Below, piece by piece: positions 34,996 through 47,309 of a DNA stretch of 64,000 nucleotides (position 1 is the stretch's first letter; each line of letters opens with the position of its first letter). The notes below the pieces were generated by a model. That model was not told the DNA's origin, made no database searches, and was given only the letters and a program-made list of their open reading frames with translations. The translations under genes and the position numbers were made by a program. This stretch comes from Dactylosporangium sp. AC04546 (GTDB taxonomy: Bacteria > Actinomycetota > Actinomycetes > Mycobacteriales > Micromonosporaceae): contig NZ_JAHYSG010000031.1 of assembly GCF_022095675.1 (NCBI RefSeq), forward strand, positions 1 to 64,000, in the 5' to 3' direction.

Positions 34996-36018
34996 ATGGC
35001 CGATGCGCTGGAGATCGAGGTCGCGGGCAGGCCGGTCCGGCTGACCAGCCCCGACAAGGTGTACTTCCCGGAGCGTGGCTTCACCAAGCGGGACGTCTTC
35101 GAGTACTACCTGGCCGTCGGTGACGGCATCATGCGAGCCCTGAGCAGCCGCCCGACGACCCTGCAGCGGTTCCCCGAGGGCATCGGCGGCGAGATGTTCT
35201 TCCAGAAGCGCGTCCCGACCAGGGGCGTCCCGCCGTGGATCGAGACGGCCAACATCGCGTTCCCGAGCGGCCGCCGGGCCGACGAGCTCTGCCCCGCCGA
35301 CCTGGCCCACGTGGCCTGGGCGGCCCAGATGGGCACGATCGTCTTCCACCCGTGGCCGGTCCGCAGCGCTGCGGTGGACAACCCGGACGAGCTGCGCATC
35401 GACCTGGACCCGCAGCCGGGCACCGACTTCGCCGACGCGGCCGTGGTGGCCGAGGAGCTGAAGGCGATCCTGGACGAGCTGGGCTTCACCGGTTGGCCGA
35501 AGACCTCGGGCGGCCGCGGCGTCCACGTGTACGTCCGAATCCGTCCACAGTGGACCTTCGTGGAGGCGAGGCGAGCGGTGATCGCCCTGGCCCGCGAGCT
35601 GGAACGCCGCCGCCCCGACCTGGCCACGACCAGCTGGTGGAAGGAGGAGCGCGGCGAGCGCGTCTTCATCGACTTCAACCAGATGGCCCGCGACCGCACG
35701 ATCGCGTGCGCGTACTCGCTTCGCGCCAACCCCAGGGCGACGGCGTCGACCCCGCTGACCTGGGCCGAACTCCCGGACGTGGACCCGAACGACTTCGACC
35801 TGCGCACGGTCCCCGAACGCTTCGCCAAGCTGGGCGACCCGCACGCCGCGATCAACGACGAGGCGTACGACATCACCCCCCTGCTGGAGTGGGCCGAACG
35901 GGACGCGGCGAACGGTCAGGGCGACATGCCCTATCCGCCGGAGTACCCAAAGATGGAGGGCGAGCCGATGCGCGTCCAGCCCAGCCGCGCCCGCCGCCCC
36001 GCGGAGGACCCGTCCTGA
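34996..36018 (+). CDS. LigD-type DNA polymerase/primase domain protein
   Basis: A 340-residue stand-alone polymerase domain of the LigD (archaeo-eukaryotic primase) superfamily. Landmarks are SPDKVYFPERGFTKRDVFEYYLAV, QKRVPTRGVPPWIET, the catalytic acidic pair in LRIDLDPQPG, KTSGGRGVHVYVRI, and RVFIDFNQMARDRTIACAYSLRA. In bacterial end joining this domain fills gaps and adds nucleotides at double-strand breaks. It is not fused to a ligase or nuclease; an ATP-dependent ligase is encoded 2 kb away on the other strand. No Ku gene is in the window. ATG 34996 is the start. Confidence 0.93.
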   Translation: MADALEIEVAGRPVRLTSPDKVYFPERGFTKRDVFEYYLAVGDGIMRALSSRPTTLQRFPEGIGGEMFFQKRVPTRGVPPWIETANIAFPSGRRADELCPADLAHVAWAAQMGTIVFHPWPVRSAAVDNPDELRIDLDPQPGTDFADAAVVAEELKAILDELGFTGWPKTSGGRGVHVYVRIRPQWTFVEARRAVIALARELERRRPDLATTSWWKEERGERVFIDFNQMARDRTIACAYSLRANPRATASTPLTWAELPDVDPNDFDLRTVPERFAKLGDPHAAINDEAYDITPLLEWAERDAANGQGDMPYPPEYPKMEGEPMRVQPSRARRPAEDPS

Positions 36019-36047: not shown

Positions 36048-36095
36048 GGCGAGTATTCCTGTGGGGAATAAGTATTCCTGACAGGAATACTCGCC
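36048..36095. repeat. Nested inverted repeat with ATTCC/GGAAT cores
   Basis: GGCGAGTATTCCTGT (36048-36062) pairs perfectly with ACAGGAATACTCGCC (36081-36095), 15 bp with an 18-nt loop. Inside it AGTATTCCTG (36071-36080) also pairs with the right arm, and TATTCC/GGAATA (36054-36070) forms a third, smaller hairpin. At least three mutually exclusive stems are possible. It lies 29 nt after the LigD polymerase stop and may be a terminator or a site for a DNA-binding protein. Confidence 0.8.
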
Positions 36096-36202
36096 AGGAC
36101 GCCACATACCTGTGCCGGCTCAACCCGAGCCTCGGCAACACGCTCACCACAACTCCGGGTCGGCCACGCCTCACGCCCTCTGCCGCGGCGCGCCGAGAAC
36201 GC

Positions 36203-36328
36203 GGAGAACGGCGCGCGGAGAACGGCGCGCGGAGAACGGCGCGCGGAGAACGGCGCGCGGAGAACGGCGCGCGGAGAACGGCGCGCGGAGAACGGCGCGC
36301 GGAGAACGGCGCGCGGAGAACGGCGCGC
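36203..36328. repeat. 14-bp tandem repeat, nine perfect copies
   Basis: GGAGAACGGCGCGC is repeated nine times without any change (126 bp), with degenerate partial copies at each end (36189-36202 and 36329-36340). Because 14 is not a multiple of 3, all reading frames cycle, so the open frames across it are artefacts. Perfect identity of the copies indicates recent expansion or active homogenisation, as in variable-number tandem repeats. It fills most of the gap between two convergent genes. Confidence 0.95.
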
Positions 36329-36440
36329 GGAGAAGGCGGGTAGAAGGCCGCGCGGCGTGCCCGGCCTGACCGCGTGGGTGCTCGAAGCGGCCGGGGTCGC
36401 CGGGGCCGGGCGTCGGGGTTGGTTGGGCGTCGGCGTCGGG

Positions 36441-38018
36441 TTACTTGTCGCAGGTCAGGTTGGCGCCGGGGACGCGGAGGTCGATCAGGTAGCGGTTGAC
36501 GGCGTCGATGACGCAGCCGGTCTTCGGGTACGCGGTGTGGCCCTCGCCCTTCCAGGTGACCAGCGTGCCGACGCCGAGCATCCTGGCCAGAGCCGGGGCC
36601 TGCTCATACGGGGTCGCGGGGTCGCCCAGGGTGCCGATCACCACGATCGGCGCCGAGCCCGTCGCCGCGGCGGCCGGGTAGGGGTCGCGCTTGCCCGGCC
36701 ACTGGGCGCAGATCAGGTTCAGGGCCAGGGAGCCGCCGAACAGCGGGTACTTCTGGCGCCACTGGCCCTGCAGGGCGCGCGCCTGCTCGACCGTCGGGGT
36801 GTCGTCGCTGTCCGCGCAGCCCACGGCGGCGTTGGCGTCGAACATGTTGGTGTAGTCACCCGACGGGTCGCGCTCCGCGTAGGAGTCGGCCAGGGTGAAC
36901 AGGCGGTCGGACTTGCCGGAGCGGAGGTCCTGCATCGCCTGGGCGAGTTCGCGCCAGCTGGACTCGCTGTACAGCGAAGAGACCACGGCCGTGAACACCC
37001 AGCCGGCCGTCGCCTTGCGGCCGTCCTTGCCGGCGACCGGGGCCGTGCGGGCGTCCGCGATCGCCTTCATGACCACGGCCCGGGCGTCGGGGCCGATGGG
37101 GCAGGACGTGCCGTTGTTGCGGCACCAGGTGGCGAAGTTGGTGAAGGCCAGCTCGAAGCCGGCCGCCTGCTTCTCGGCCGAGTCCTGCGTCGACAGCGTC
37201 GGGTCGACCGCGCCGTCGAGGACCAGGGCGCGGACGTTCTTCGGGAACAGCTGGGCGTAGACGGCGCCGAGGAGGGTGCCGTAGCTATACCCCAGGTAGG
37301 TGAGCTGGGACTCGCCCACGGCGGCGCGCAGCGCGTCCATGTCGCGGGCGGTCTGCTTCGTCGAGTAGTAGCGCAGCGCGTCGCCATACTTGTCGCCGCA
37401 GCTCTGGGCCAGCTTGCGGGCCAGCGTGACGCTCTGCTGGAACTGCGCGTCGGAGACCGGGTCGGGGTCGATGCCGAAGTTGGCGTCGAGGTCGGCGTTG
37501 GAGAAGCACTTCACCGGCGACGACCGGCCGATGCCACGCGGGTCGAAGCCGACGACGTCGAAGCGCCGCAGGACCTCCGCCGGAAGATACACCGAGCGAT
37601 ACACCGCGTAGTCGAAGCCCGACGCTCCGGGGCCGCCCGGGTTGATGAACAGCGAGCCCACCCGGTCGCGCTGGGTCGTGGAGCGGCCGCGGACCAGGGC
37701 GATGTCGAACGTGCCCGAGTCCTTCGGGTGCTCCCAGTCCTGCGGCACCTTGACCGTGGCACAGCTGAACGTCACGTTCTGCGGCGGGCTCGGGAAGATC
37801 GCCTTGTAGGCGTCGGGGCACGGCTTCCAGTCGGCCGGCGCGATCGGCACGCCCGAGCTGGACGCCGACGGCCGGGCCGACGCGCCGGGCAGCGGCCGGC
37901 CGGCGGTCGGCACGGTCCACCGCGTGTCGGGCGAGATGCACCCGCCGAGCAGCGTGGCGACAACAAGGAGGGAAGCGACGCCGACGAGCCGCCGGCGAAG
38001 GAGGCGGTGGTGGCTCAA
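36441..38018 (-). CDS. Secreted alpha/beta hydrolase, S33 tripeptidyl aminopeptidase-like lipoprotein
   Basis: A 525-residue exported peptidase. The lipobox LLGGC places the lipidated Cys at residue 27. The hydrolase fold shows the oxyanion strand FINPGGPGASG, DVVGFDPRGIGRSSPV, the nucleophile Ser245 in YLGYSYGTLLG, and His494 in WKGEGHTAY; the C-terminal TAP-like domain is present with a late Cys pair. It matches Streptomyces tripeptidyl aminopeptidases that trim N-terminal peptides. The TTG start at 38018 overlaps the ligase stop by TTGA; no nearby ATG or GTG gives a full signal peptide. It may be co-transcribed with the repair genes, though its role is unrelated. Confidence 0.87.
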   Translation of the reverse strand: MSHHRLLRRRLVGVASLLVVATLLGGCISPDTRWTVPTAGRPLPGASARPSASSSGVPIAPADWKPCPDAYKAIFPSPPQNVTFSCATVKVPQDWEHPKDSGTFDIALVRGRSTTQRDRVGSLFINPGGPGASGFDYAVYRSVYLPAEVLRRFDVVGFDPRGIGRSSPVKCFSNADLDANFGIDPDPVSDAQFQQSVTLARKLAQSCGDKYGDALRYYSTKQTARDMDALRAAVGESQLTYLGYSYGTLLGAVYAQLFPKNVRALVLDGAVDPTLSTQDSAEKQAAGFELAFTNFATWCRNNGTSCPIGPDARAVVMKAIADARTAPVAGKDGRKATAGWVFTAVVSSLYSESSWRELAQAMQDLRSGKSDRLFTLADSYAERDPSGDYTNMFDANAAVGCADSDDTPTVEQARALQGQWRQKYPLFGGSLALNLICAQWPGKRDPYPAAAATGSAPIVVIGTLGDPATPYEQAPALARMLGVGTLVTWKGEGHTAYPKTGCVIDAVNRYLIDLRVPGANLTCDK

Positions 38019-39130
38019 GGACGCCCTGCCAGCACGGACTCCACGTCGAACCGCACGGGCCGGTCGAGCTGCTCATAGGTGCAGGAGGCCGGGTCGCGGT
38101 CGGGCCGCCAGCGCTTGAACTGCGCCGTGTGCCGGAACCGGTCGCCCTCCATCGCGTCGTAGCCCACCTCGACGACCAGCTCGGGCCGCAGGGGCACGAA
38201 CGACAGGTCCTTCTTGCCGGTCCAGCGGCTCACGCCGCCGGGCAGCCTGGTGCCGCCCTCGGCCGGGACCGACTCGATGCTCTCGGCGGCGCTGCCGGGC
38301 GCCAGGCCCGCCCAGTTCCAAGGGTGGTCGACCACATCCTCACGGTACTGCGCGAGCTCCTGCACCAGCTCGGCCCGCCGCTCCCGCGTGAAGGAGGCGG
38401 CCACCCCGACGTGGTGCAGGCGCCCCTCGTCGTCATAGAGCCCGAGCAGGAGCGACCCGACGATCGGCCCGTCCTTGTGCCAGCGGAAGCCGGCGACGAC
38501 CGTGTCCGCCGTGCGGGAGTGCTTGATCTTGAACATCGTGCGCTTCCCCGGCTCGTAGAGCCCCTCGGCCGGCTTCGCGATCACCCCGTCGAGCCCGGCA
38601 CCCTCGAAGCGCTCGAACCAGTCGCGGGCCGTCTCGACGTCGGTCGTCACCGGGGTGACGTGCATCGGCGGCTGCACGGTGGCCAACGCCTCGGCCAGGC
38701 GGGCCCGGCGCTCGGCATAGCCCTTGCCGGCGAGCGCCTCGTCGCCGAGCGCCAGCAGGTCGAACGCCACGAACGAGGCCGGCGTGGTCTCGGCGAGCAT
38801 CCTCACCCGGCTCGCGGCCGGGTGGATCCGCTGGCCGAGCAGCTCGAAGTCGAGCCGCGGCTCGCCCGTGTCGCGGCGGATGACGATGATCTCGCCGTCG
38901 ACCACGCAGCGCTCGGGCAGCTGGGCGCGGACCTGCTCGACCACCTCGGGGAAGTAGCGGGTCAGCGTCTTGCCGCCGCGGCTGGCCAGCTCGACCTCGT
39001 CGCCGTCGCGGAACACGATGCAGCGGAATCCGTCCCACTTCGGCTCGTAGCTCATGCCGGGCGCGGTTGGCAGGCTCGGAATGCTCTTGGCGAGCATCGG
39101 CTCGACCGGCGGGTTGACGGGCAGCTCCAC
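38015..39130 (-). CDS. ATP-dependent DNA ligase (LigC/LigD ligase-domain type)
   Basis: A 371-residue ligase. The adenylation motif I is YEPKWDGFRCIVFRDG, with Lys as the AMP acceptor. Further nucleotidyltransferase motifs are ELASRGGKTLTRYFPEV, VVDGEIIV, VAFDLLALGDEAL, GVIAKPAEGLYEPGKR and KIKHSRTADTVV. The OB-fold domain follows. It lacks the polymerase and nuclease domains of full LigD and is therefore a stand-alone repair ligase. GTG 39130 is the start; it lies 33 nt after the glycosylase stop on the same strand. Confidence 0.94.
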   Translation of the reverse strand: MELPVNPPVEPMLAKSIPSLPTAPGMSYEPKWDGFRCIVFRDGDEVELASRGGKTLTRYFPEVVEQVRAQLPERCVVDGEIIVIRRDTGEPRLDFELLGQRIHPAASRVRMLAETTPASFVAFDLLALGDEALAGKGYAERRARLAEALATVQPPMHVTPVTTDVETARDWFERFEGAGLDGVIAKPAEGLYEPGKRTMFKIKHSRTADTVVAGFRWHKDGPIVGSLLLGLYDDEGRLHHVGVAASFTRERRAELVQELAQYREDVVDHPWNWAGLAPGSAAESIESVPAEGGTRLPGGVSRWTGKKDLSFVPLRPELVVEVGYDAMEGDRFRHTAQFKRWRPDRDPASCTYEQLDRPVRFDVESVLAGRP

Positions 39131-39163
39131 GGGGACCAGTCAACCACAGAGGTACGACAACTT

Positions 39164-40069
39164 TCAGAATCGCGCGAAGGAGCGCAGCGGCATGCGCGGG
39201 CCGAACTTGGGCGCCGTGATGCCCGCCGCCGCGAGCAGGCCGCAGACCCGCCCGCGGTGCCCGGCGTAGGGGGCCAGCAGCTCCAGCATGTGCTCGTCGG
39301 TGCCGCGGGGCGCTCCGGTCAGTGCGAACGCCACGATGTTCTTGATGTGGTAGTCGCCCACCGAGACGGCGTCGGGGTCGCCGAACGCCGCCCGTGTCAC
39401 CTCGGCCGCCGTCCACGGCCCGATGCCGGGAATGCTCATCAGCCGCGCGGTCGCGGTGGCCGCGTCCGGGCAGCGCTCCAGGGCCGCCGCCTGCGCCGCG
39501 GCCCGGCGCAGCGTGTCGGCCCGCTTCTGTTCGACGCCGAACGGGTGGAACACCCAGTACGGCGTGGCGGCGACCGCCTCGGGCGGCGGGGGCAGTCGCA
39601 GCCGCGCCAGCGGCCCCGGAGCGGGCTCGGTGCTGAAGTGGCGCAGCATCCGCACGTACCCGTGATGCGCCTCCTTGCCGGTCACCTTCTGCCCGAGGAT
39701 CGCCGGCACCAGGTGGTGGAAGACCCGGCCGGTGGCGCCGAAGCGCAGCCCGGCGTGCTCACGGGCGAGCCGCGCGACGAGCGGGTGCTGCTTCGCGAGC
39801 TCGGCGAACCCGGTGACGTCGTCACGCAGGCCGGCCACCGCGTCGGCCCGGTCGAGCAGCCAGTCGGCTCCCGGCCCGTAGGCCTCCGCGGTCAGCTCGG
39901 CGGCCGCCGGAACGTACGACAGCCGCAGCGTGCCGGGCCCGTCCGGGGTGCGGGTCGCGAAGAACGCCTCCCGGCCGCCGATCGCGAGCGTCGGGTCGCC
40001 GTGGATCAGCGCCAGGCCGCGCATCGTGCCGGCCAGGTCGTAGCGCTCAGGGGTGGGGAACCGGATCAC
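39164..40069 (-). CDS. AlkA-like DNA-3-methyladenine glycosylase
   Basis: A 301-residue HhH-GPD DNA glycosylase that removes alkylated or otherwise damaged bases. The helix-hairpin-helix is LMSIPGIGPWTAAEVTRAAFG, followed by the catalytic Asp in DAVSVGDYHIKN. The N-terminal 100 residues form the AlkA-type beta domain. There is no Ada-like regulator fusion. GTG 40069 overlaps the upstream NurA-like stop by GTGA, so it is translated as part of the resection operon. Confidence 0.9.
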   Translation of the reverse strand: MIRFPTPERYDLAGTMRGLALIHGDPTLAIGGREAFFATRTPDGPGTLRLSYVPAAAELTAEAYGPGADWLLDRADAVAGLRDDVTGFAELAKQHPLVARLAREHAGLRFGATGRVFHHLVPAILGQKVTGKEAHHGYVRMLRHFSTEPAPGPLARLRLPPPPEAVAATPYWVFHPFGVEQKRADTLRRAAAQAAALERCPDAATATARLMSIPGIGPWTAAEVTRAAFGDPDAVSVGDYHIKNIVAFALTGAPRGTDEHMLELLAPYAGHRGRVCGLLAAAGITAPKFGPRMPLRSFARF

Positions 40070-41001
40070 GCCGCCACCCGGGAAAGCGCGCGGTGCAGCA
40101 GGCGGGCGTCGCCCAGCATGGCCCGCAGCTTACGCTCCAGACCCGCGATCGGGATCAGGTTCTGCGGCGCCCTGGGGTCCTTGTAGGCGGTCGAGGCGAA
40201 GCGCGGGAGCGTCACCGCCGACAGGTGGGCCAGGGCCACCGCGTCGGCCGGGAGCAGGTCGGCCGAGCACTCGGCGCGGACCAGCCCGGCCCACGGCGAG
40301 CCGGCCGGCCCGGGCAGCCGCAGGTACCACGAGAACCGGTGCCAGGAGGTGCCCAGCACGAACACCGGCGACCGCTGGCCCCCGCGCAGCGCGGTGACCA
40401 CAGCCGTCAGCTCGCTCGGGAGGTACTCCTTCTGATGGGTCTTGATATAGCCCAGCGTCCGGGGCAGGTGCGCCCGCTCCTGCAGCGGCCCGTCGACGAT
40501 GAGCAGGTCACCGTCGGTGCGCTCCTCGTTGGAGACGCCCACCTCGAGCGCCCGCATGTGCCGCTGGACGCCCAGGGCCAGGTCCTTCGGCTCGCCGCGG
40601 GCGACCCGCCGGGCCGGGTAGCGGATGCTGCCGGCCACGATCGGCGGCAGCGGGTCGAGCGGCGTGAACAGCCCCCGCTCGATCCGCGTGGTGGCCACCT
40701 GCGCCGCGCCCCGGTCGAGGTCGCAACGCACGACGCCGGCCGCGTACGACGCGGCGACCCCCGGATGCGTGACGCCCTCGTCGTCGGTCAGCCACACCCG
40801 GGCGTCGACCCGCTGGACCCCGTCGACGATGAGCACCGTGCCGGGCGGCCGGACGCCGGGCAGCGGGTCGATCGGGCGCCACGCCGCCGCCGGCAGTTCG
40901 ACGTCGGCCTGGATCTGCGCGCTGCTCTGCGCCTGCGGCCCGTCGGGAGCCTCGAACGCGATGCCGTACGCCGGGTCCCAGGCGTCGACGTGCAGCTTCA
41001 C
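40066..41001 (-). CDS. nurA: NurA-like 5'-3' nuclease
   Basis: A 311-residue protein that I assign to the NurA nuclease family from its motifs and position. Asp60 lies in VLIVDGVQRVDARVW (NurA motif I, hhxDG); Glu159/160 and Asp170 lie in NEERTDGDLLIVDGPLQERAH (motif with DGxL); GYIKTHQKEYLP follows, as is usual; and the C-terminus has TAYKDPRAPQNLIPI. NurA works with the HerA translocase in DNA-end resection. The gene overlaps sbcC by GTGA and the glycosylase by GTGA. Archaeal nurA has the same partners. Many databases will call it hypothetical; activity is inferred. Confidence 0.75.
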   Translation of the reverse strand: MKLHVDAWDPAYGIAFEAPDGPQAQSSAQIQADVELPAAAWRPIDPLPGVRPPGTVLIVDGVQRVDARVWLTDDEGVTHPGVAASYAAGVVRCDLDRGAAQVATTRIERGLFTPLDPLPPIVAGSIRYPARRVARGEPKDLALGVQRHMRALEVGVSNEERTDGDLLIVDGPLQERAHLPRTLGYIKTHQKEYLPSELTAVVTALRGGQRSPVFVLGTSWHRFSWYLRLPGPAGSPWAGLVRAECSADLLPADAVALAHLSAVTLPRFASTAYKDPRAPQNLIPIAGLERKLRAMLGDARLLHRALSRVAA

Positions 41002-43475
41002 AGGCCCACCCGCTCGATGCGCGCGGTCCGGGCGTCGCGCCGGACCTCGAACCGGACCGGGATCCGCTCGGCGAGCGCCCCGACGTGCGTGACGACGCCG
41101 ACCATGCGGTCGCCGCGGGCGGCCAGGTTCTCCAGCGTCGCCGCCACGGTGTCGAGCGTCGACGAGTCGAGGGTGCCGAAGCCCTCGTCGAGGACGATCG
41201 ACTCGAGGCTGGCCGCGGCCGTGGACATCCCGGCGAGCTGGTCGGACAGGGCCAGCGCGAGTGCGAGCGACGCCTGGAACGTCTCGCCGCCCGACAGCGT
41301 GCGCACCGCCCGGCGCAGGCCGGCGTCGTGGTGGTCGACGACGAAGAACTCGCCCTTCTCGTGGACCAGGTCGTACTGGCCGTTCGAGAGCTCCCGCAGC
41401 GTGCGGGACGCGCCGTCGACGAGCGTGTCGAGCGCCTCGGCGAGCAGCCAGCGCTCGAAGCGGTCGGCCCGCAGGTGCTGGGCGAGTGCCTTGGCGACCT
41501 GGCTCTCCTTCGCCACCTCGTCGCGCTGCTCGCGGATGCGCTCGGCGTCCTTGCGCTTCTCCTCGATCCGGCGGCGGGCCGCGTCGGCCCGCTCCAGCGC
41601 GACCGCCGCGTCGCGGGCCGGGTCGGCGCCGGGCAGCGGCAGGCCGGCGTCGCTGAACAGGGTGCGTAACTCGTCGCGGACCTCGGTGACCCGCCGCTCG
41701 GCGGCCCGCAGGTCGTCGACCGCGGCCTGCCGCCCGGCCCGCCGCCGGCCCGCCTCGCCGGTCGCCCAGGCCGCCAGCGTGCCCCACGCGTCGGCGAGGT
41801 CGTCGCGGTTGGCCGGCGGCGGCGCGAACGCGGCGAGGCCGTCGCGGGCGGTGTCGAACGCGCGCCACGCCGAGCGCAGCTTCTCCTCGGCCCGGTCGGC
41901 GGTCGCGGCCGCCTTGCGGTGCGCGTCGCGGGCCCGCCGCACGTCCAGGCCGGCCTTCTCGAGTCCACTCTGGAGGGTCGCGATCGCGTCGAGCTCGCGG
42001 CGTAACGCGTCGGGGGCCGGCGCGCCGTCGAGCGCGGTGTCCAGGGCCGTCAACCGGGCGTCGACCTGCTCCGCGTGCGCCTTGGCCGCGGCGAGCGCCC
42101 GGTCGGCGTCCCGCGCGGCGCGGTCCCGGTCCTCGGCTGTGGAAGCCGCGGCGTCGCTGCGCTTGCGGGCGGCGTCCCCGGCGACGCGTAACGCGGCGAC
42201 GGCCGAGTCGTGCGGCGCCTCGGGCACCGCGTGCACCGGCTGCTCGCACACCGGGCACGCCTCGCCGACCTTCAGGAACGGCCGCAGCGCCATCGCCCGG
42301 TCGACGGCCATCGCCGCCTGGTACGCCTCGCGGGCCGCCTCCAGCGCCGTGAGCGCGTCGGCGGCCTGAGTCCGGGCGAGTTCCAGAGCATCGACCGACG
42401 TCGAGTGTTGCCGTGCCGCCGCAGCGACCGTCGACCGCACGTCCGCGGCCTCACGAGCCAGTTCGGATCGCGAAGCATGCGTGTCGAGCAGCCGCCGCAG
42501 CGCCGTCGCGTCGCCGGCCGCCTGGAGCTCCCCGCGCAGCTTCTCCTCGGCCTCCTCGGCCGCGCGGGCCGCGTCGACCGCCCCGGTGACCGCCTCACGC
42601 GCGGCGGAGGCGGCCGCGGCGAGCGTCGCCGCCTCCGCGGGCATCGCGACCGCGCCGAGCCGCTCGATCTGGGTGTCGAGGTCGGCGAGCGCGTCGGCGG
42701 CCTGCCCGGCGAGCCGGCCCGCGTCGGCGAGCTGCGGCGCGATCCGGTCGACCGCGGTGCCGAGGTCGGTGAGCGCCGCGACCCGGGCGACGGCCGCGGC
42801 CAGGGCGTCGTCGCCGATGTCCGAGAGCGCCCGCAGCTGGTCGTCGAGGATCTTCAACTTCGCTTCAGCGGTGGTACCGAGGGAGGTCGCCCGCTCCCGG
42901 ATCTGCCCGTAGACGTCGAGGCCCAGCAGGTTGACCAGGATCTTCTGCCGCTCGGCCGGCTTGGCGTGCAGGAACGCGGCGAACTCGCCCTGCGGGAGCA
43001 CGACGCACTTGGTGAACTGCTCGTACGGCAGGCCGACGACGGTCTGCACCGCCTCGTCGACCTCGGTCGCGGTACCGGCGAGGACCGTCCCGATGTCGTC
43101 CCCGGTGAGTCCGGTGTCGAACTTGCCCAGGTCGAAGCCGTGGGGGAGGGCCTCGAGGCCGGCGTGCTTGGTGGTGACCGCGCCCTTGGCGTCGCGCCGG
43201 ACCACCCGGGCCAGCACGTACCGCACCCCGGCCGACTCGAACACCAGCCGCACCCGCGCCTCGGCCGCCGACGGGGCGAGCGCGTTGGCGATGGCCCGCC
43301 GGTCGCCCCACCTCGGTACCGTGCCGTACAGGGCGAAGCAGATCGCGTCGAGGACAGTCGACTTGCCGGAGCCGGTCGGGCCGACGAGCGCGAAGAAGTC
43401 GGTGTCGGTGAAGTCGACGGTCGTCGGCTCCCGGAAGACCGTGAAGCCGTCGAGGTCCAGCCGGATGGGCCTCAC
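40998..43475 (-). CDS. sbcC: SbcC/Rad50-type SMC-like ATPase
   Basis: An 825-residue ATPase that partners SbcD (Mre11) to open and process DNA ends. Walker A GPTGSGKSTVLDAI starts near residue 30. Long Ala-rich coiled coils flank a zinc hook CPVC at about residues 405-408. The signature LSGGETFQASLALALALSDQL, Walker B SIVLDEGFGTLD and D-loop are near the C-terminus. It is shorter than E. coli SbcC (1048), reflecting shorter coiled coils, which is common in actinobacteria. Start GTG 43475 overlaps the SbcD stop by GTGA. Confidence 0.96.
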   Translation of the reverse strand: MRPIRLDLDGFTVFREPTTVDFTDTDFFALVGPTGSGKSTVLDAICFALYGTVPRWGDRRAIANALAPSAAEARVRLVFESAGVRYVLARVVRRDAKGAVTTKHAGLEALPHGFDLGKFDTGLTGDDIGTVLAGTATEVDEAVQTVVGLPYEQFTKCVVLPQGEFAAFLHAKPAERQKILVNLLGLDVYGQIRERATSLGTTAEAKLKILDDQLRALSDIGDDALAAAVARVAALTDLGTAVDRIAPQLADAGRLAGQAADALADLDTQIERLGAVAMPAEAATLAAAASAAREAVTGAVDAARAAEEAEEKLRGELQAAGDATALRRLLDTHASRSELAREAADVRSTVAAAARQHSTSVDALELARTQAADALTALEAAREAYQAAMAVDRAMALRPFLKVGEACPVCEQPVHAVPEAPHDSAVAALRVAGDAARKRSDAAASTAEDRDRAARDADRALAAAKAHAEQVDARLTALDTALDGAPAPDALRRELDAIATLQSGLEKAGLDVRRARDAHRKAAATADRAEEKLRSAWRAFDTARDGLAAFAPPPANRDDLADAWGTLAAWATGEAGRRRAGRQAAVDDLRAAERRVTEVRDELRTLFSDAGLPLPGADPARDAAVALERADAARRRIEEKRKDAERIREQRDEVAKESQVAKALAQHLRADRFERWLLAEALDTLVDGASRTLRELSNGQYDLVHEKGEFFVVDHHDAGLRRAVRTLSGGETFQASLALALALSDQLAGMSTAAASLESIVLDEGFGTLDSSTLDTVAATLENLAARGDRMVGVVTHVGALAERIPVRFEVRRDARTARIERVGL

Positions 43476-44617
43476 TGGGACACCACCTCGTCGTGCAGCT
43501 GGTGGAACAGGGCCACGGTCGCCTCGTCGGCGTGCCCGCGCTGGGTCAGGTAGTCGGCGAACAGCTCCCCGGCCGAGCGGCCGGCCCGCGCCGATTCGGC
43601 GTCGCCGGCGGACTTCGGGCCGGGCAGCAGCTTCGGGTCGATGCGCACCTCGAGCGCCTTCGGCAGCAGCTCCTGCACGTCCTCGCGCAGGCCGGCCCGG
43701 GGCTTCTCCTGCACGTACACCCGCAGCCACGCCTCGCCCGTGTCCAGGGTCGCGAGCTGGTCCAGCGTGCCGCGCACCGTCCGCAGCGGGGTCTTGACCG
43801 GCAGCATGACCTCCCGCGCGTTCGCCGCGGTCGTCGCGGTGACGTCGACGACGACCGCGGTGGAGAGGTTCTCCTCCTCACCGAAGTCGATCGGGAGGGG
43901 GCTTCCGCTGTACCGGATGGGGCACGGGCCGTTGACGGACTGGGCGCGGTGCAGGTGGCCGAGCGCGACGTAGTGCGCCGACGTCGGGAACACGCTGGCC
44001 GGCACGGCGTAGCCCATGATGGTGTGCGCCTCGCGCTCGCCGCCGCCCATCGTGGCGCCGATGACGGTCAGGTGCGCGGTGACGAGGTTGACCGTGTCGG
44101 CGCCGAAGCCCTTGGTCAGCGCGCTGAGCAGGCCCCCGATGTGCTGCGGGTACGACTGGGCGTTCTCGGCGGCGGTGAGGTCGAACATCTCGGCGGCGCG
44201 GACCGCGTACCGCTGCGAGACGAACGGCAGCGCGACCAGCCGCCACTCCTCGCCGGCCGCGGTGCGGCCCGTGATCAGGTGATCCTCGGGCTTGCCGACC
44301 GCGCCCCGGATGGTGATGCCGGCCGCGTCGGCCCAGGGCCGCAGCGCGTCGAGGGCCGGGCCGTTGTCGTGGTTGCCGCCGATGACGACCACCTCGGCGC
44401 TCTTTCGCAGCGCCGAGAGGCCCCGCGTGACGATGCGTGTCGAGTCCGCCGTGGGTGTGGCCCCGTCGTACAGGTCGCCGGCGACGATCACCAGGTCGGG
44501 CTGCTCGGCCTTGGCGACCTCGACGAGCGCGTTGATCGCCGCGATGTGGTCGGCGGCCCTCGACTGTCCCTTGAGGACCTTGCCGACGTGCCAGTCCGAG
44601 GTGTGCAGGATCCGCAC
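43472..44617 (-). CDS. sbcD: SbcD/Mre11-type exonuclease
   Basis: A 381-residue metallophosphoesterase nuclease. All five metal motifs are visible: TSDWHVGK, VAGDLYDG, IGGNHDNGPAL, VTAHLTVI and ALGHLHRAQ. The C-terminal capping region follows. The GTG start at 44617 is preceded by AGAGGAGA at 4 nt. The gene is 38 nt after the HerA-like stop and overlaps sbcC. The complex cleaves hairpins and protein-blocked ends and starts resection. Confidence 0.96.
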   Translation of the reverse strand: MRILHTSDWHVGKVLKGQSRAADHIAAINALVEVAKAEQPDLVIVAGDLYDGATPTADSTRIVTRGLSALRKSAEVVVIGGNHDNGPALDALRPWADAAGITIRGAVGKPEDHLITGRTAAGEEWRLVALPFVSQRYAVRAAEMFDLTAAENAQSYPQHIGGLLSALTKGFGADTVNLVTAHLTVIGATMGGGEREAHTIMGYAVPASVFPTSAHYVALGHLHRAQSVNGPCPIRYSGSPLPIDFGEEENLSTAVVVDVTATTAANAREVMLPVKTPLRTVRGTLDQLATLDTGEAWLRVYVQEKPRAGLREDVQELLPKALEVRIDPKLLPGPKSAGDAESARAGRSAGELFADYLTQRGHADEATVALFHQLHDEVVSQ

Positions 44618-44655
44618 CCGGTCTCCTCTCGTCTTCCGGTCGTCTTCCGTTCGGG

Positions 44656-46425
44656 TCAGAACGGGATGTCGTCGTCGGAGATGCCGCCGGCGCCGACCCG
44701 GGCCACGACGGCGAACGGGTCGCCGCCCTGCACCAGCGAGCGCAGTGTCGAGGCCGGGGGAGCGCCCGCCTCGCCGGGCCGGGTGGCCCAGGACGGGAAC
44801 GGGAACTCGATGCACAGCGGCACCGGGATCTCCGGCTGCGAGACGAACATGGTGCCGGGCTTGGCCAGCAGGGCCCGCTGCCGCTGGGCGGGCGGGAGGA
44901 AGCCGTACTCCGGGCGCGAGGCCTCGGCCGGGTCGAGCCGCCCGACCACGCGGATCGCCGAGTTGGCCACGATCCGCCGCTCGACCTCGCTGGCGGTCTG
45001 CTGGGCGCCGACGAGCACGACGCCGAGGGACCGCCCGCGCTCGGCGATGTCGAGCAGCACCTCCTTGATCGGGCTGGTGCCCTCGCGCGGCGCGTACTTG
45101 TTCAGCTCGTCGAGCACCACGAACAGCAGCGGCTTGGCGGTGCCGGCCTTCTCCTTGCGCTCGAACTCGGTGCGCAGCGTCACGCCGACCACGAACCGCT
45201 GCGCGCGGTCGGGCAGGTTGTGCAGGTCGACCACGGTCACCTGGGCGCTCTCGGCGGTGTTGATCTGGTGCGGCTTGCGGGTCGCGAGGTCGCCGCGGAT
45301 CAGCCGGGACAGGTCCTTCTTGCTGCCGATGAGCCGGCGCGCGAACGCGTTGACGGTGCCGAGGCCGATGGAGCTGCCCGCCCACTGGCCGCGCGTGGAG
45401 TCGTCGTTGAGCTGTTCGACGACGAAGTCGACCAGGTCCGCGTACGAGTTGATGCGGGTGCCGTCGATCGCGACGCCGCCCTCGGCCGGCTGGGCGATGC
45501 GGGCGAGGTGCGCGGTGACCGAGTGGACGACCATCGTGTACTGCTGGCGCTCGTCGTCGGCGTCGGCGAACACGTACGGCAGCAGCCGGTCGGCGCAGAA
45601 CTCCTGGAGCGTCCAGTAGAAGGCGTCGACGCCCGAGAGCCGGCTGCTGACGTCGGGTGTACCGCTGGCGTCGCCCGCCCGCGGCGGCGCGTACACGCGC
45701 ACGTCCGGGAACGGCCCCGCGACCAGGCCGAGCCGCGCGTAGGCGGCCTCGGTCGACTGGTCCAGCCGCGCGTTGGGGTGGTCGAGGAACAGCAGGTCCT
45801 CACCCTTGACGTTGAAGATGAGCGCCCTGGTGTTGGCGGTCTCGCCGGCGCCGCCCAGCACGCCCGAGCGGAACACGGAGTACAGCAGGAAGGTCGCGAA
45901 GCTCGTCTTCGTGGCGACGCCGGAGATCCCCGAGATCGAGACGTGGGCGCCGCGCGTGCCGTCGAGGAAGTCGGCGTTGAGGAACATGGGCATGCCGTCG
46001 CGGCCGAAGCCCATCGGGATCGTGCGGTCCATGCGGTCGAAGTACAGGGCGCCGGCGCGCGCGTCACCGCGGGCCCGATGCACGAGCGCGCCCGGCGTCG
46101 GCGGCACGTAGACCTCCGGATCGACCCGCGTCGTGGTGATCTCGGCCGCCTCCTGGATGGTCGCGGGCAGCGTGCCGTCGGCGACGAGGAAGACGTCGGA
46201 GTCGAACACCACGCCCTCGTGCCGCGCGCGGACGGCGGTGACCACACCCGCGATCTTGACGGGGTCGTGCTCGGGGAGGTCACGCTCGGTGACGACGACG
46301 TCGTCGAGTTGCAGGTATGCCCCGTCCTCGACGGCCACCCAGAACGTCAGCGGGGTGGCGTCGGCGGTACCGAGGACACGCCCGACGATCGGACCGTCAC
46401 CCTCGGCTGCCGTCTCGTCCTCCAT
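44656..46425 (-). CDS. herA: HerA-like hexameric DNA translocase ATPase
   Basis: A 589-residue ATPase. A small beta-rich HAS-barrel-type N-terminal domain (GPIVGRVLGTADATPLTFWVAVEDGAYLQLDDVVVT, GVVTAV) precedes the HerA/FtsK core (DUF87). The P-loop reads SGISGVATKTSFATFLL, a degenerate Walker A without the usual Gly before Lys; Walker B is KPLLFVVLDELNKYAP; the arginine-finger region follows at RGRSLGVVLVGAQQTASEVERRIVANSAIRVVGRLD. It would pump DNA through a ring for the NurA nuclease. It is the first gene of the chain. ATG 46425 is used; ATG 46443 is an alternative. Confidence 0.85.
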   Translation of the reverse strand: MEDETAAEGDGPIVGRVLGTADATPLTFWVAVEDGAYLQLDDVVVTERDLPEHDPVKIAGVVTAVRARHEGVVFDSDVFLVADGTLPATIQEAAEITTTRVDPEVYVPPTPGALVHRARGDARAGALYFDRMDRTIPMGFGRDGMPMFLNADFLDGTRGAHVSISGISGVATKTSFATFLLYSVFRSGVLGGAGETANTRALIFNVKGEDLLFLDHPNARLDQSTEAAYARLGLVAGPFPDVRVYAPPRAGDASGTPDVSSRLSGVDAFYWTLQEFCADRLLPYVFADADDERQQYTMVVHSVTAHLARIAQPAEGGVAIDGTRINSYADLVDFVVEQLNDDSTRGQWAGSSIGLGTVNAFARRLIGSKKDLSRLIRGDLATRKPHQINTAESAQVTVVDLHNLPDRAQRFVVGVTLRTEFERKEKAGTAKPLLFVVLDELNKYAPREGTSPIKEVLLDIAERGRSLGVVLVGAQQTASEVERRIVANSAIRVVGRLDPAEASRPEYGFLPPAQRQRALLAKPGTMFVSQPEIPVPLCIEFPFPSWATRPGEAGAPPASTLRSLVQGGDPFAVVARVGAGGISDDDIPF

Positions 46426-46553
46426 GGTCGACCCCCAGTACATGTGTTCGCCTGTGCATCGTGCCTCAAGACCGCCAGCCGGTCGAAGCCACCACGCCAT
46501 CGGGGTGAGTATTCAGGTTCGGAAATACGGACAGAAGCGGACGCAACACGCCG

Positions 46554-46609
46554 CTGTCCACAGGGCTGTGGCATGTTGTCCACAGGCTTGTGGATACCGC
46601 TGTGGATGG
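46554..46609. promoter_or_regulatory. Cluster of four DnaA-box-like sites
   Basis: CTGTCCACAG (46554-46563), TTGTCCACAG (46576-46585, a perfect high-GC DnaA box TTGTCCACA), TTGTGGATA (46588-46596, reverse orientation) and CTGTGGATGG (46600-46609, reverse) lie within 56 bp. They fall between the RibD-like stop and the HerA-like start, about 130 bp upstream of the repair operon. No origin genes (dnaA, dnaN) are near. A DnaA-responsive promoter or titration site is possible. Confidence 0.5.
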
Positions 46610-46613
46610 CGGG

Positions 46614-47309
46614 CTATCTGCAGTACCGCAGCATCAGCTGGCCCTCGGCGAGCAGTGCGTGACGGAGCGTAAGCTCCTGAGGCGCCGGGACCGGGGGCCC
46701 GGCGGTGATCCGGCCGGCGCCCGGACCGGCGAGCAGCGGCGAGACGGTGAGGCACAGCTCGTCGACGAGCCCGGCTGCGGTGAGTGACCCGAACAGGTGC
46801 GGGCCGCCCTCGCTGAGGATGCTGCGCAGGCCGCGCGCGTGGAGCGTCGCGACGGTCGCCGGAAGGTCGTCGGCCGTGTCGATGACGTCGGCCACGTCGC
46901 TCAGGTGGGCGGCCTGCCCGCGGGTGATCACGATCGGGCGGACCGGGGCGTCGGCGAGGGCCGGGTGGGCCGGGTCGAGGTCGGCGCGGCCGGAGACGAC
47001 GGCGAGCACCGGGTACTCGCTCAGGCCGTGGTCGAGGCGCCACTTCCTGCGCTCGGGGTCGAGGCGCAGGGCGCGGTAGCCCTCGTCGCGCAGGGTGCCG
47101 GCGCCGACGAGGAGGGCGTCGCACAGCATGCGCAGGGTGCCGAAGACGCGCTTGTCGGCCGCTCCGGACAGCCCCGCCGACTTACCGTCGACGGTGCCGG
47201 CGCCGTCGAGGCTCGTCACGAAGTTCATCCGCAGCCACGGTGTGCGCGGCTCGGCGTAGAGCTGGACGAGGTCGGGCTGTTCCTGCTGTGTCGGCCAGAG
47301 TTGCTGCAC
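46614..47309 (-). CDS. RibD C-terminal-domain (dihydrofolate-reductase-fold) protein
   Basis: A 231-residue pyrimidine reductase-like protein. LRMNFVTSLDGAGTVDGKSAGLSGAADKRVFGTLRMLCDALLVGAGTLRDEGYRAL is the NADPH/substrate site of the RibD C-terminal family, and SILSEGGPHLFGSLTAAGLVDELCLTVSPLLAG completes it. The deaminase half of RibD is absent. Stand-alone members reduce 5-amino-6-ribosylaminouracil phosphates or unrelated pteridine-like compounds; which applies here is not clear, as other riboflavin genes are absent. Start GTG 47309. Confidence 0.88.
   Translation of the reverse strand: MQQLWPTQQEQPDLVQLYAEPRTPWLRMNFVTSLDGAGTVDGKSAGLSGAADKRVFGTLRMLCDALLVGAGTLRDEGYRALRLDPERRKWRLDHGLSEYPVLAVVSGRADLDPAHPALADAPVRPIVITRGQAAHLSDVADVIDTADDLPATVATLHARGLRSILSEGGPHLFGSLTAAGLVDELCLTVSPLLAGPGAGRITAGPPVPAPQELTLRHALLAEGQLMLRYCR

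Follow-up and report, generated by a model that had tools for sequence, protein, structure and literature searches.

The closest described relatives of the locus analyzed here come from archaea and from Deinococcus radiodurans. In Sulfolobus and other archaea, herA, mre11, rad50 and nurA are linked in one cluster, which is reported as co-transcribed in S. acidocaldarius (PMC2288612). D. radiodurans encodes the HerA-NurA pair of PDB entry 7F6D, and published accounts disagree on its Mre11-Rad50 counterpart: the genes are described as unclustered with herA-nurA in one source (PMC8708640, section 8.2), as absent in another (PMC12977600), and sbcCD is taken to be present in a third, which states that the link to it "remained to be uncovered" (PMC4663267). 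NurA and HerA homologs have already been stated to exist in Actinobacteria, where that same section 8.2 of PMC8708640 describes them as unstudied. Here we analyze a window of 64,000 nucleotides (the whole stretch of DNA considered) from Dactylosporangium sp. AC04546, in which genes for HerA, the Mre11- and Rad50-like subunits SbcD and SbcC, and NurA lie together on the minus strand. The host genome assembly spans 348 contigs (13.0 Mb), of which 11.54% is estimated to be contamination, and all whole-genome statements should therefore be interpreted cautiously.

What is new here is a clustered bacterial form of herA-sbcD-sbcC-nurA, together with a C-terminal tip on HerA that resembles that of single-stranded DNA-binding protein (SSB); we found no report of either in the open-licence literature, a search that did not extend to older gene-context surveys. 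We consider it probable that SbcCD and HerA-NurA process DNA ends together, with the HerA tails docking SSB partners. What the data show is the families to which the proteins belong, the conservation of their catalytic residues and of their linkage, a separate SbcD lineage, and a HerA tip that is nearly unique in this genome; joint action, resection as opposed to another use, a HerA hexamer and docking are what we infer.

Identity and linkage of the core genes

In a profile search the HerA product matched D. radiodurans HerA (7f6d_B) at E 1.5e-174. Its Walker A (K173/T174) and Walker B (D439/E440) residues were invariant in a 21-row alignment, K173 and D439 aligning with K175 and D487 of the Deinococcus protein (drHerA). 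NurA matched 7f6d_H (E 9.8e-39) and 1zup (E 4.8e-6) by sequence; its D60, K187 and R277 were invariant in a 23-row alignment and align with D53, K201 and R309 of drNurA, given an inferred numbering offset of 20. The window protein also has the RNase H-like NurA fold, with the D. radiodurans protein as the nearest type in the VIA-align list, a list whose omissions do not exclude a family. On these comparisons the two proteins are assigned to the HerA translocases of Deinococcus type and to the NurA nucleases of bacterial type, the activity of the latter being predicted. They share with the D. radiodurans pair their families, Walker and catalytic residues and the bacterial type of NurA; their closest named relatives are Dactylosporangium proteins. 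The AlphaFold model of HerA, a putative hexamer, was poor (predicted local distance difference test score, pLDDT, 45.1) and was left unused.

The original prediction, which had been made from the letters and open reading frames (ORFs) of the window, had named a HerA-like ATPase and a NurA, and both calls are borne out by the matches to proteins of solved structure and the conserved residues, that of NurA also by its fold. Its description of the genes as archaeal-type is not supported: in sequence HerA and NurA both come closest to the D. radiodurans type, as NurA does in fold too, which sets this locus apart from the archaeal operon in the subtype of both proteins. The comparison with HerA/DUF87 and NurA profiles that it had proposed gave a divided outcome: relatives of solved structure matched both proteins, while Pfam returned no HerA-type family at E up to 1 and scored NurA at 15.2 bits, under the 21-bit cut-off. 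An NCBIfam scan likewise gave no match for HerA or NurA. None of the 120 listed relatives of drHerA carries a precomputed Pfam domain, indicating that the Pfam HerA/DUF87 model does not reach the bacterial-type group. The Pfam NurA model is similarly too distant from the bacterial type and misses this group: it found no match in the window's own genome or in any of 197 genomes of the class, whereas the window NurA used as query matched 15/197. Surveys relying on that model would overlook these proteins.

SbcD (TIGR00619, 173 bits, cut-off 77.65) and SbcC are assigned by sequence to the SbcCD (Mre11-Rad50) family. SbcC scored 279.7 bits with TIGR00618, under the curated cut-off of 478.5, and exceeded the cut-offs of AAA_23 and of PF13558 (SbcC_Walker_B; 41.2 bits, cut-off 27). 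We then reconstructed an SbcD tree from 66 chosen rows, namely 28 cluster SbcDs, 35 ordinary actinobacterial SbcDs and three from plasmids of other phyla. The ordinary SbcDs were separated with support of 100/99 and the cluster SbcDs grouped together (92/92), a topology that places the cluster SbcD in a separate lineage; a cyanobacterial plasmid-module SbcD joined the cluster side (96/85), and the other two plasmid rows stood apart. The window's genome gave one SbcD match, and a second SbcD over the cut-off was present elsewhere in 5 of the 14 class genomes that carry the cluster (G100, G111, G131, G132 and G190).

To this family evidence can be added the conservation of gene order. We examined 93 loci, comprising the best 80 of 516 relatives (hence close, and mostly from Micromonosporaceae) and 13 from class genomes; order could be tested in the 84 that reach over 5.6 kb upstream of nurA. 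All 84 showed herA-sbcD-sbcC-nurA on one strand, so that chance does not account for the grouping. Fourteen of the 15 nurA matches in the class were strong (E 5.7e-24 or better). The remaining one (G182, E 1.7e-4) was not counted, no cluster gene being found in the stretch around it (L145). For herA there were matches in 42/197 genomes at E up to 0.001; 14 of them had E values no higher than 7.5e-138, and the fifteenth stood at 7.3e-7. The strong matches of both genes fell in an identical set of 14 genomes, and SbcD exceeded its cut-off in 113/197; herA and nurA are therefore rare in the class, occur together and flank sbcDC, and the core unit is herA-sbcD-sbcC-nurA.

A wider search of the phylum recovered HerA matches in 70/198 genomes, and we inspected 40 of these loci (the best and a few weaker ones). 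The four genes lay on one strand in 32/40, 23 of them as nurA-herA-sbcD-sbcC and nine as herA-sbcD-sbcC-nurA. Among the others, nurA was not detected at four loci, three of which belong to one family while the fourth lies at a contig end; herA stood alone at three more, and one had herA-sbcD. L235 and L244 lie at contig ends. The archaeal-like grouping of four linked functions that the original prediction had pointed out is upheld by the gene-order survey it had suggested, and the core is widespread in the phylum and not peculiar to one genome. Family f50 (L272-L274) combines a distant HerA with sbcD and sbcC, and no NurA was found there by the NurA profile built here.

The module was also found on plasmids of Streptomyces, two cyanobacteria and one Chloroflexota. 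The NurA of the Streptomyces plasmid matches window NurA (phmmer, E 8.2e-78), and that of one cyanobacterial plasmid matches drNurA (E 2.5e-22). For the plasmid proteins of L179 and L180, phmmer found no solved NurA and the NurA profile built here gave 44 and 61 bits, which leaves their status as NurA weak. Genes for ImmA/IrrE-type proteases lie near the plasmid module in Streptomyces and Chloroflexota (L176, 1-8313; L179, 1-7550), and genes of Wadjet-like type in the former and TIR and HEPN genes in the latter are found at a greater distance.

A C-terminal tip on HerA resembling that of SSB

The HerA of the window ends in ISDDDIPF. A terminal PF was found in 84/84 HerA ORFs identified in the 93 loci (66 DIPF, 6 EIPF and 12 others) and in 120/120 listed HerA relatives, which are the best of 8,000 scored and hence close; in the same loci it was found in none of the other core proteins (SbcD 0/85, SbcC 0/93, NurA 0/92). 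DDDIPF is the tip of E. coli SSB (PMC5872125), which in E. coli is described as binding RecO, PriA and other partners (PMC7145534). With acidic residues and a final xPF at its extreme C-terminus, HerA carries what has the features of an SSB tip, for which binding is predicted, although here the tip stands on an ATPase translocase and not on a protein that binds single strands. The window genome's own SSB ends in DDEPPF, and in all of 13 other cluster genomes the best SSB carries a terminal PPF.

We searched the genome on both strands for DD[DE]xPF followed by TRR, with the reversed pattern as control. Three places were recovered, namely HerA, the SSB contig and one site where the codon that comes next, TGG, does not stop translation; the control gave none. 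Only SSB and HerA thus end in DD[DE]xPF in this genome. A second likeness lies before the tip: a [DN]P[FW] element was present in the last 40 HerA residues in 12/13 class genomes and 28/37 fetched phylum loci. The SSB of the window's genome contains DPW, as do the final 16 SSB residues in 8/13 other cluster genomes. The PF end itself was found in 13/13 class genomes and 6/37 fetched phylum loci, and in 0/23 of the phylum loci with nurA first; the Streptomyces plasmid HerA ends in DEPPY.

HerA tails elsewhere have different short ends that may also be docking tails. Many deep Actinomycetota HerAs end in DPFEGL-like sequences, and the 120 listed Deinococcus-type HerAs (P0251-P0370) include 49 that end in WLR, 31 in LGL and 2 in F. 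The C-terminal domain of RecJ is reported to bind HerA (PMC4663267) and, in another source, the SSB tip (PMC4846377); an SSB-like tip was considered as the cause of the Deinococcus HerA-RecJ contact and rejected, since 0/120 of these HerAs end in PF.

Proposed function and competing explanations

In the mechanism that we propose, SbcCD would open or clean blocked ends, a HerA ring would pump the duplex into a NurA dimer, and the dimer would cut the 5′ strand, so that RecA would be offered a 3′ tail. On each HerA subunit of the Actinomycetes lineage, the SSB-like tip would dock SSB-binding repair proteins (RecO, RecJ, RecQ, PriA and others) at the processed end. A bolder version, which we advance tentatively and at somewhat less than an even chance, is that an end-resecting motor took on an SSB recruitment signal in Actinomycetes, with up to six tips per ring summoning RecO, RecJ or PriA directly in a self-contained SbcCD-HerA-NurA module that passes from phylum to phylum and onto plasmids; if true, the HerA tips would parallel what RecBCD does in loading RecA. 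Actinobacteria with all four genes, culturable Micromonospora among them, make it testable in bacteria whether HerA-NurA and SbcCD work together and whether HerA-NurA resects ends at all. The last Phe of the tip offers a concrete handle, and the tip may provide the means by which end trimming leads on to recombination.

Several observations weigh against joint end processing with docked SSB partners. A 2026 paper doubts that HerA-NurA acts in resection and proposes an antiviral role in its place (PMC12977600), and herA and nurA mutants of D. radiodurans are reported to show reduced recombination but only a small effect on radiation resistance (PMC4663267); herA-nurA are, as mentioned, described as unclustered with Mre11-Rad50 genes in Deinococcus. 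An AdnAB-like helicase-nuclease pair is encoded elsewhere in the genome, so the core unit is not its sole candidate resection enzyme. The module is patchy in the class (14/197) and occurs on plasmids, herA was found without sbcCD in roughly 9 kb downstream at two phylum loci (L236 and L239), and the SbcD tree was flagged for long branches by the tool. As for the tip, two SSB paralogs of the window's genome lack it, and the PF end is absent in 31/37 phylum HerAs, in 3/3 of family f50, in 3/3 plasmid HerAs of other phyla and in Deinococcus. These absences make the PF tip a lineage trait, gained in a single lineage where it was perhaps added to a short tail of older origin.

The plasmid copies and the patchy distribution also speak for a reading in which the four genes encode a defense nuclease against phages or plasmids, HerA-NurA-SbcCD destroying foreign DNA with repair at most a side role. 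The Streptomyces plasmid copy lies beside TIGR02680, TIGR02678 and DUF2397 genes, which we take to be Wadjet-like, and an ImmA/IrrE protease gene, and the Chloroflexota plasmid copy beside TIR, HEPN and ImmA/IrrE genes. SbcC matches PADLOC mad3 (E 1.2e-26) and LmuB (E 8e-21), and HerA partners Sir2 or DUF4297 in antiviral systems according to the same source that proposes HerA-NurA as antiviral (PMC12977600). The mad3 match spans only residues 5-201 of the 825 of SbcC, however, PADLOC matches of HerA and of SMC type are partial, and NurA has none; moreover, gene order is conserved in every testable Micromonosporaceae locus, three of the records (L023, L024 and L027) are titled chromosome, and the Deinococcus mutants show less recombination (PMC4663267). 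We accordingly regard defense as an improbable main role. The tip could also be explained not as an SSB mimic but as a docking motif private to HerA, serving to contact SbcC or the HerA ring itself, and the other short ends of HerA tails suggest that a C-terminal docking motif may predate the PF tip; yet the ending is shared in the genome by SSB and HerA only, its DDDIPF form in HerA is that of the E. coli SSB tip (PMC5872125), and it is preceded by the DPF/DPW element, of which DPW recurs in SSB, which renders a private motif unlikely, if less so than a defense role.

A further alternative was raised by the original prediction, which had proposed that resection, base excision and ligation are coupled through a single transcript. 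The seven genes are indeed tightly spaced here, and an AlkA-like glycosylase (NF007641, 35.1 bits, under the cut-off of 229; 1diz, E 2.6e-4) directly follows nurA. Among the 79 loci that extend over 4 kb downstream past nurA, it lies no more than 200 nt away in eight (five Dactylosporangium, one Micromonosporaceae metagenome-assembled genome and two Planosporangium); a ninth case, L033 at 71 nt, is on a contig too short to count. In the remainder it is farther on the same strand (47/79, the nearest at 1,004 nt), best matched on the other strand (3/79) or not found (21/79), with a median distance of 3,528 nt over the 55 same-strand loci. Moreover, glycosylase, ligC and the S33 peptidase gene were found in 0/11 class genomes outside the family in the stretch examined, which reached at least 4 kb downstream in seven, and 594 nt separate the glycosylase and ligC matches in Dactylosporangium siamense. 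An all-in-one repair unit thus appears very improbable, and joint end processing by the four-gene core remains our preferred reading.

Layout of the locus and neighboring genes

All seven minus-strand genes of the cluster (36441-46425) are present, and the close packing and overlaps at four junctions described by the original prediction were confirmed gene by gene. There are gaps of 38 nt (herA/sbcD) and 33 nt (glycosylase/ligC) and four 4-nt overlaps, GTGA at sbcD/sbcC, sbcC/nurA and nurA/glycosylase and TTGA at ligC/S33. The starts of sbcD and sbcC were taken as internal GTGs at 44617 and 43475, the mechanical ORF list having longer frames, and for herA the ATGs at 46500 and 46443 are in frame as well as the one at 46425. 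A terminator scan of 36100-46900 gave two sites, both on the plus strand, against 2.0 expected; a sigma-70 promoter scan gave none against 0.1 expected and is uninformative.

Table 1 Features of the locus, in coordinates of the window.
Feature	Position	Strand	Remarks
herA, predicted HerA-type DNA translocase ATPase, bacterial (Deinococcus) type	44656..46425	-	ends ISDDDIPF; profile match to 7f6d_B
SSB-like C-terminal tip of HerA (DDDIPF + stop)	44656..44676	-	genome-wide motif search; 84/84 related HerA ORFs end PF
sbcD, predicted Mre11-like nuclease subunit	43472..44617	-	TIGR00619
sbcC, predicted Rad50-like ATPase subunit	40998..43475	-	TIGR00618 (below cut-off), PF13558; GTG start 43475 overlaps sbcD stop
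nurA, predicted NurA nuclease, RNase H-like fold, bacterial type	40066..41001	-	
AlkA-like DNA glycosylase, outside core	39164..40069	-	NF007641 (below cut-off), 1diz; adjoins nurA only in some relatives
LigC-type ATP-dependent DNA ligase, neighbor, outside core	38015..39130	-	NF006078
S33/TAP-like lipoprotein peptidase	36441..38018	-	PF00561 + PF08386 over cut-off; after ligC in relatives
LigD-type primase-polymerase (likely Prim-PolC), convergent with cluster, neighbor	34996..36018	+	PF21686, E 5.5e-91

The ligase, which we take to be of the LigC family from its match to NF006078 (549.9 bits, cut-off 296), is paired with the S33 gene on the same strand, -33 to 304 nt apart, in 43 loci, which are all the loci showing ligC. 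A primase-polymerase (Prim-Pol) gene lies on the opposite strand 1.5-4.4 kb away in eight of these 43; among the other 35, five have more than 4.4 kb beyond ligC and no Prim-Pol, and the rest are shorter. In mycobacteria, LigC and Prim-PolC are reported to act in base excision repair and, in some species, to share operons with the glycosylase FPG (PMC5663958). The present neighborhood resembles that set in combining a LigC-type ligase, a Prim-Pol and a glycosylase, and differs in that the glycosylase is AlkA-like instead of FPG and the Prim-Pol gene is on the facing strand. The glycosylase, LigC and Prim-Pol are a separate base-excision-repair set of known kind, next door here and not part of the core.

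The Prim-Pol gene was absent from the gene list of the original prediction. Between it and the convergent S33 gene lies a 23-nt inverted repeat whose arms are 2 nt apart (36048-36095), perhaps a two-way terminator, and just 3′ of the S33 gene, at 36200-36348, a 14-nt unit is repeated in head-to-tail copies, for which the repeat finder gave 11 overlapping registers in 14-nt steps.

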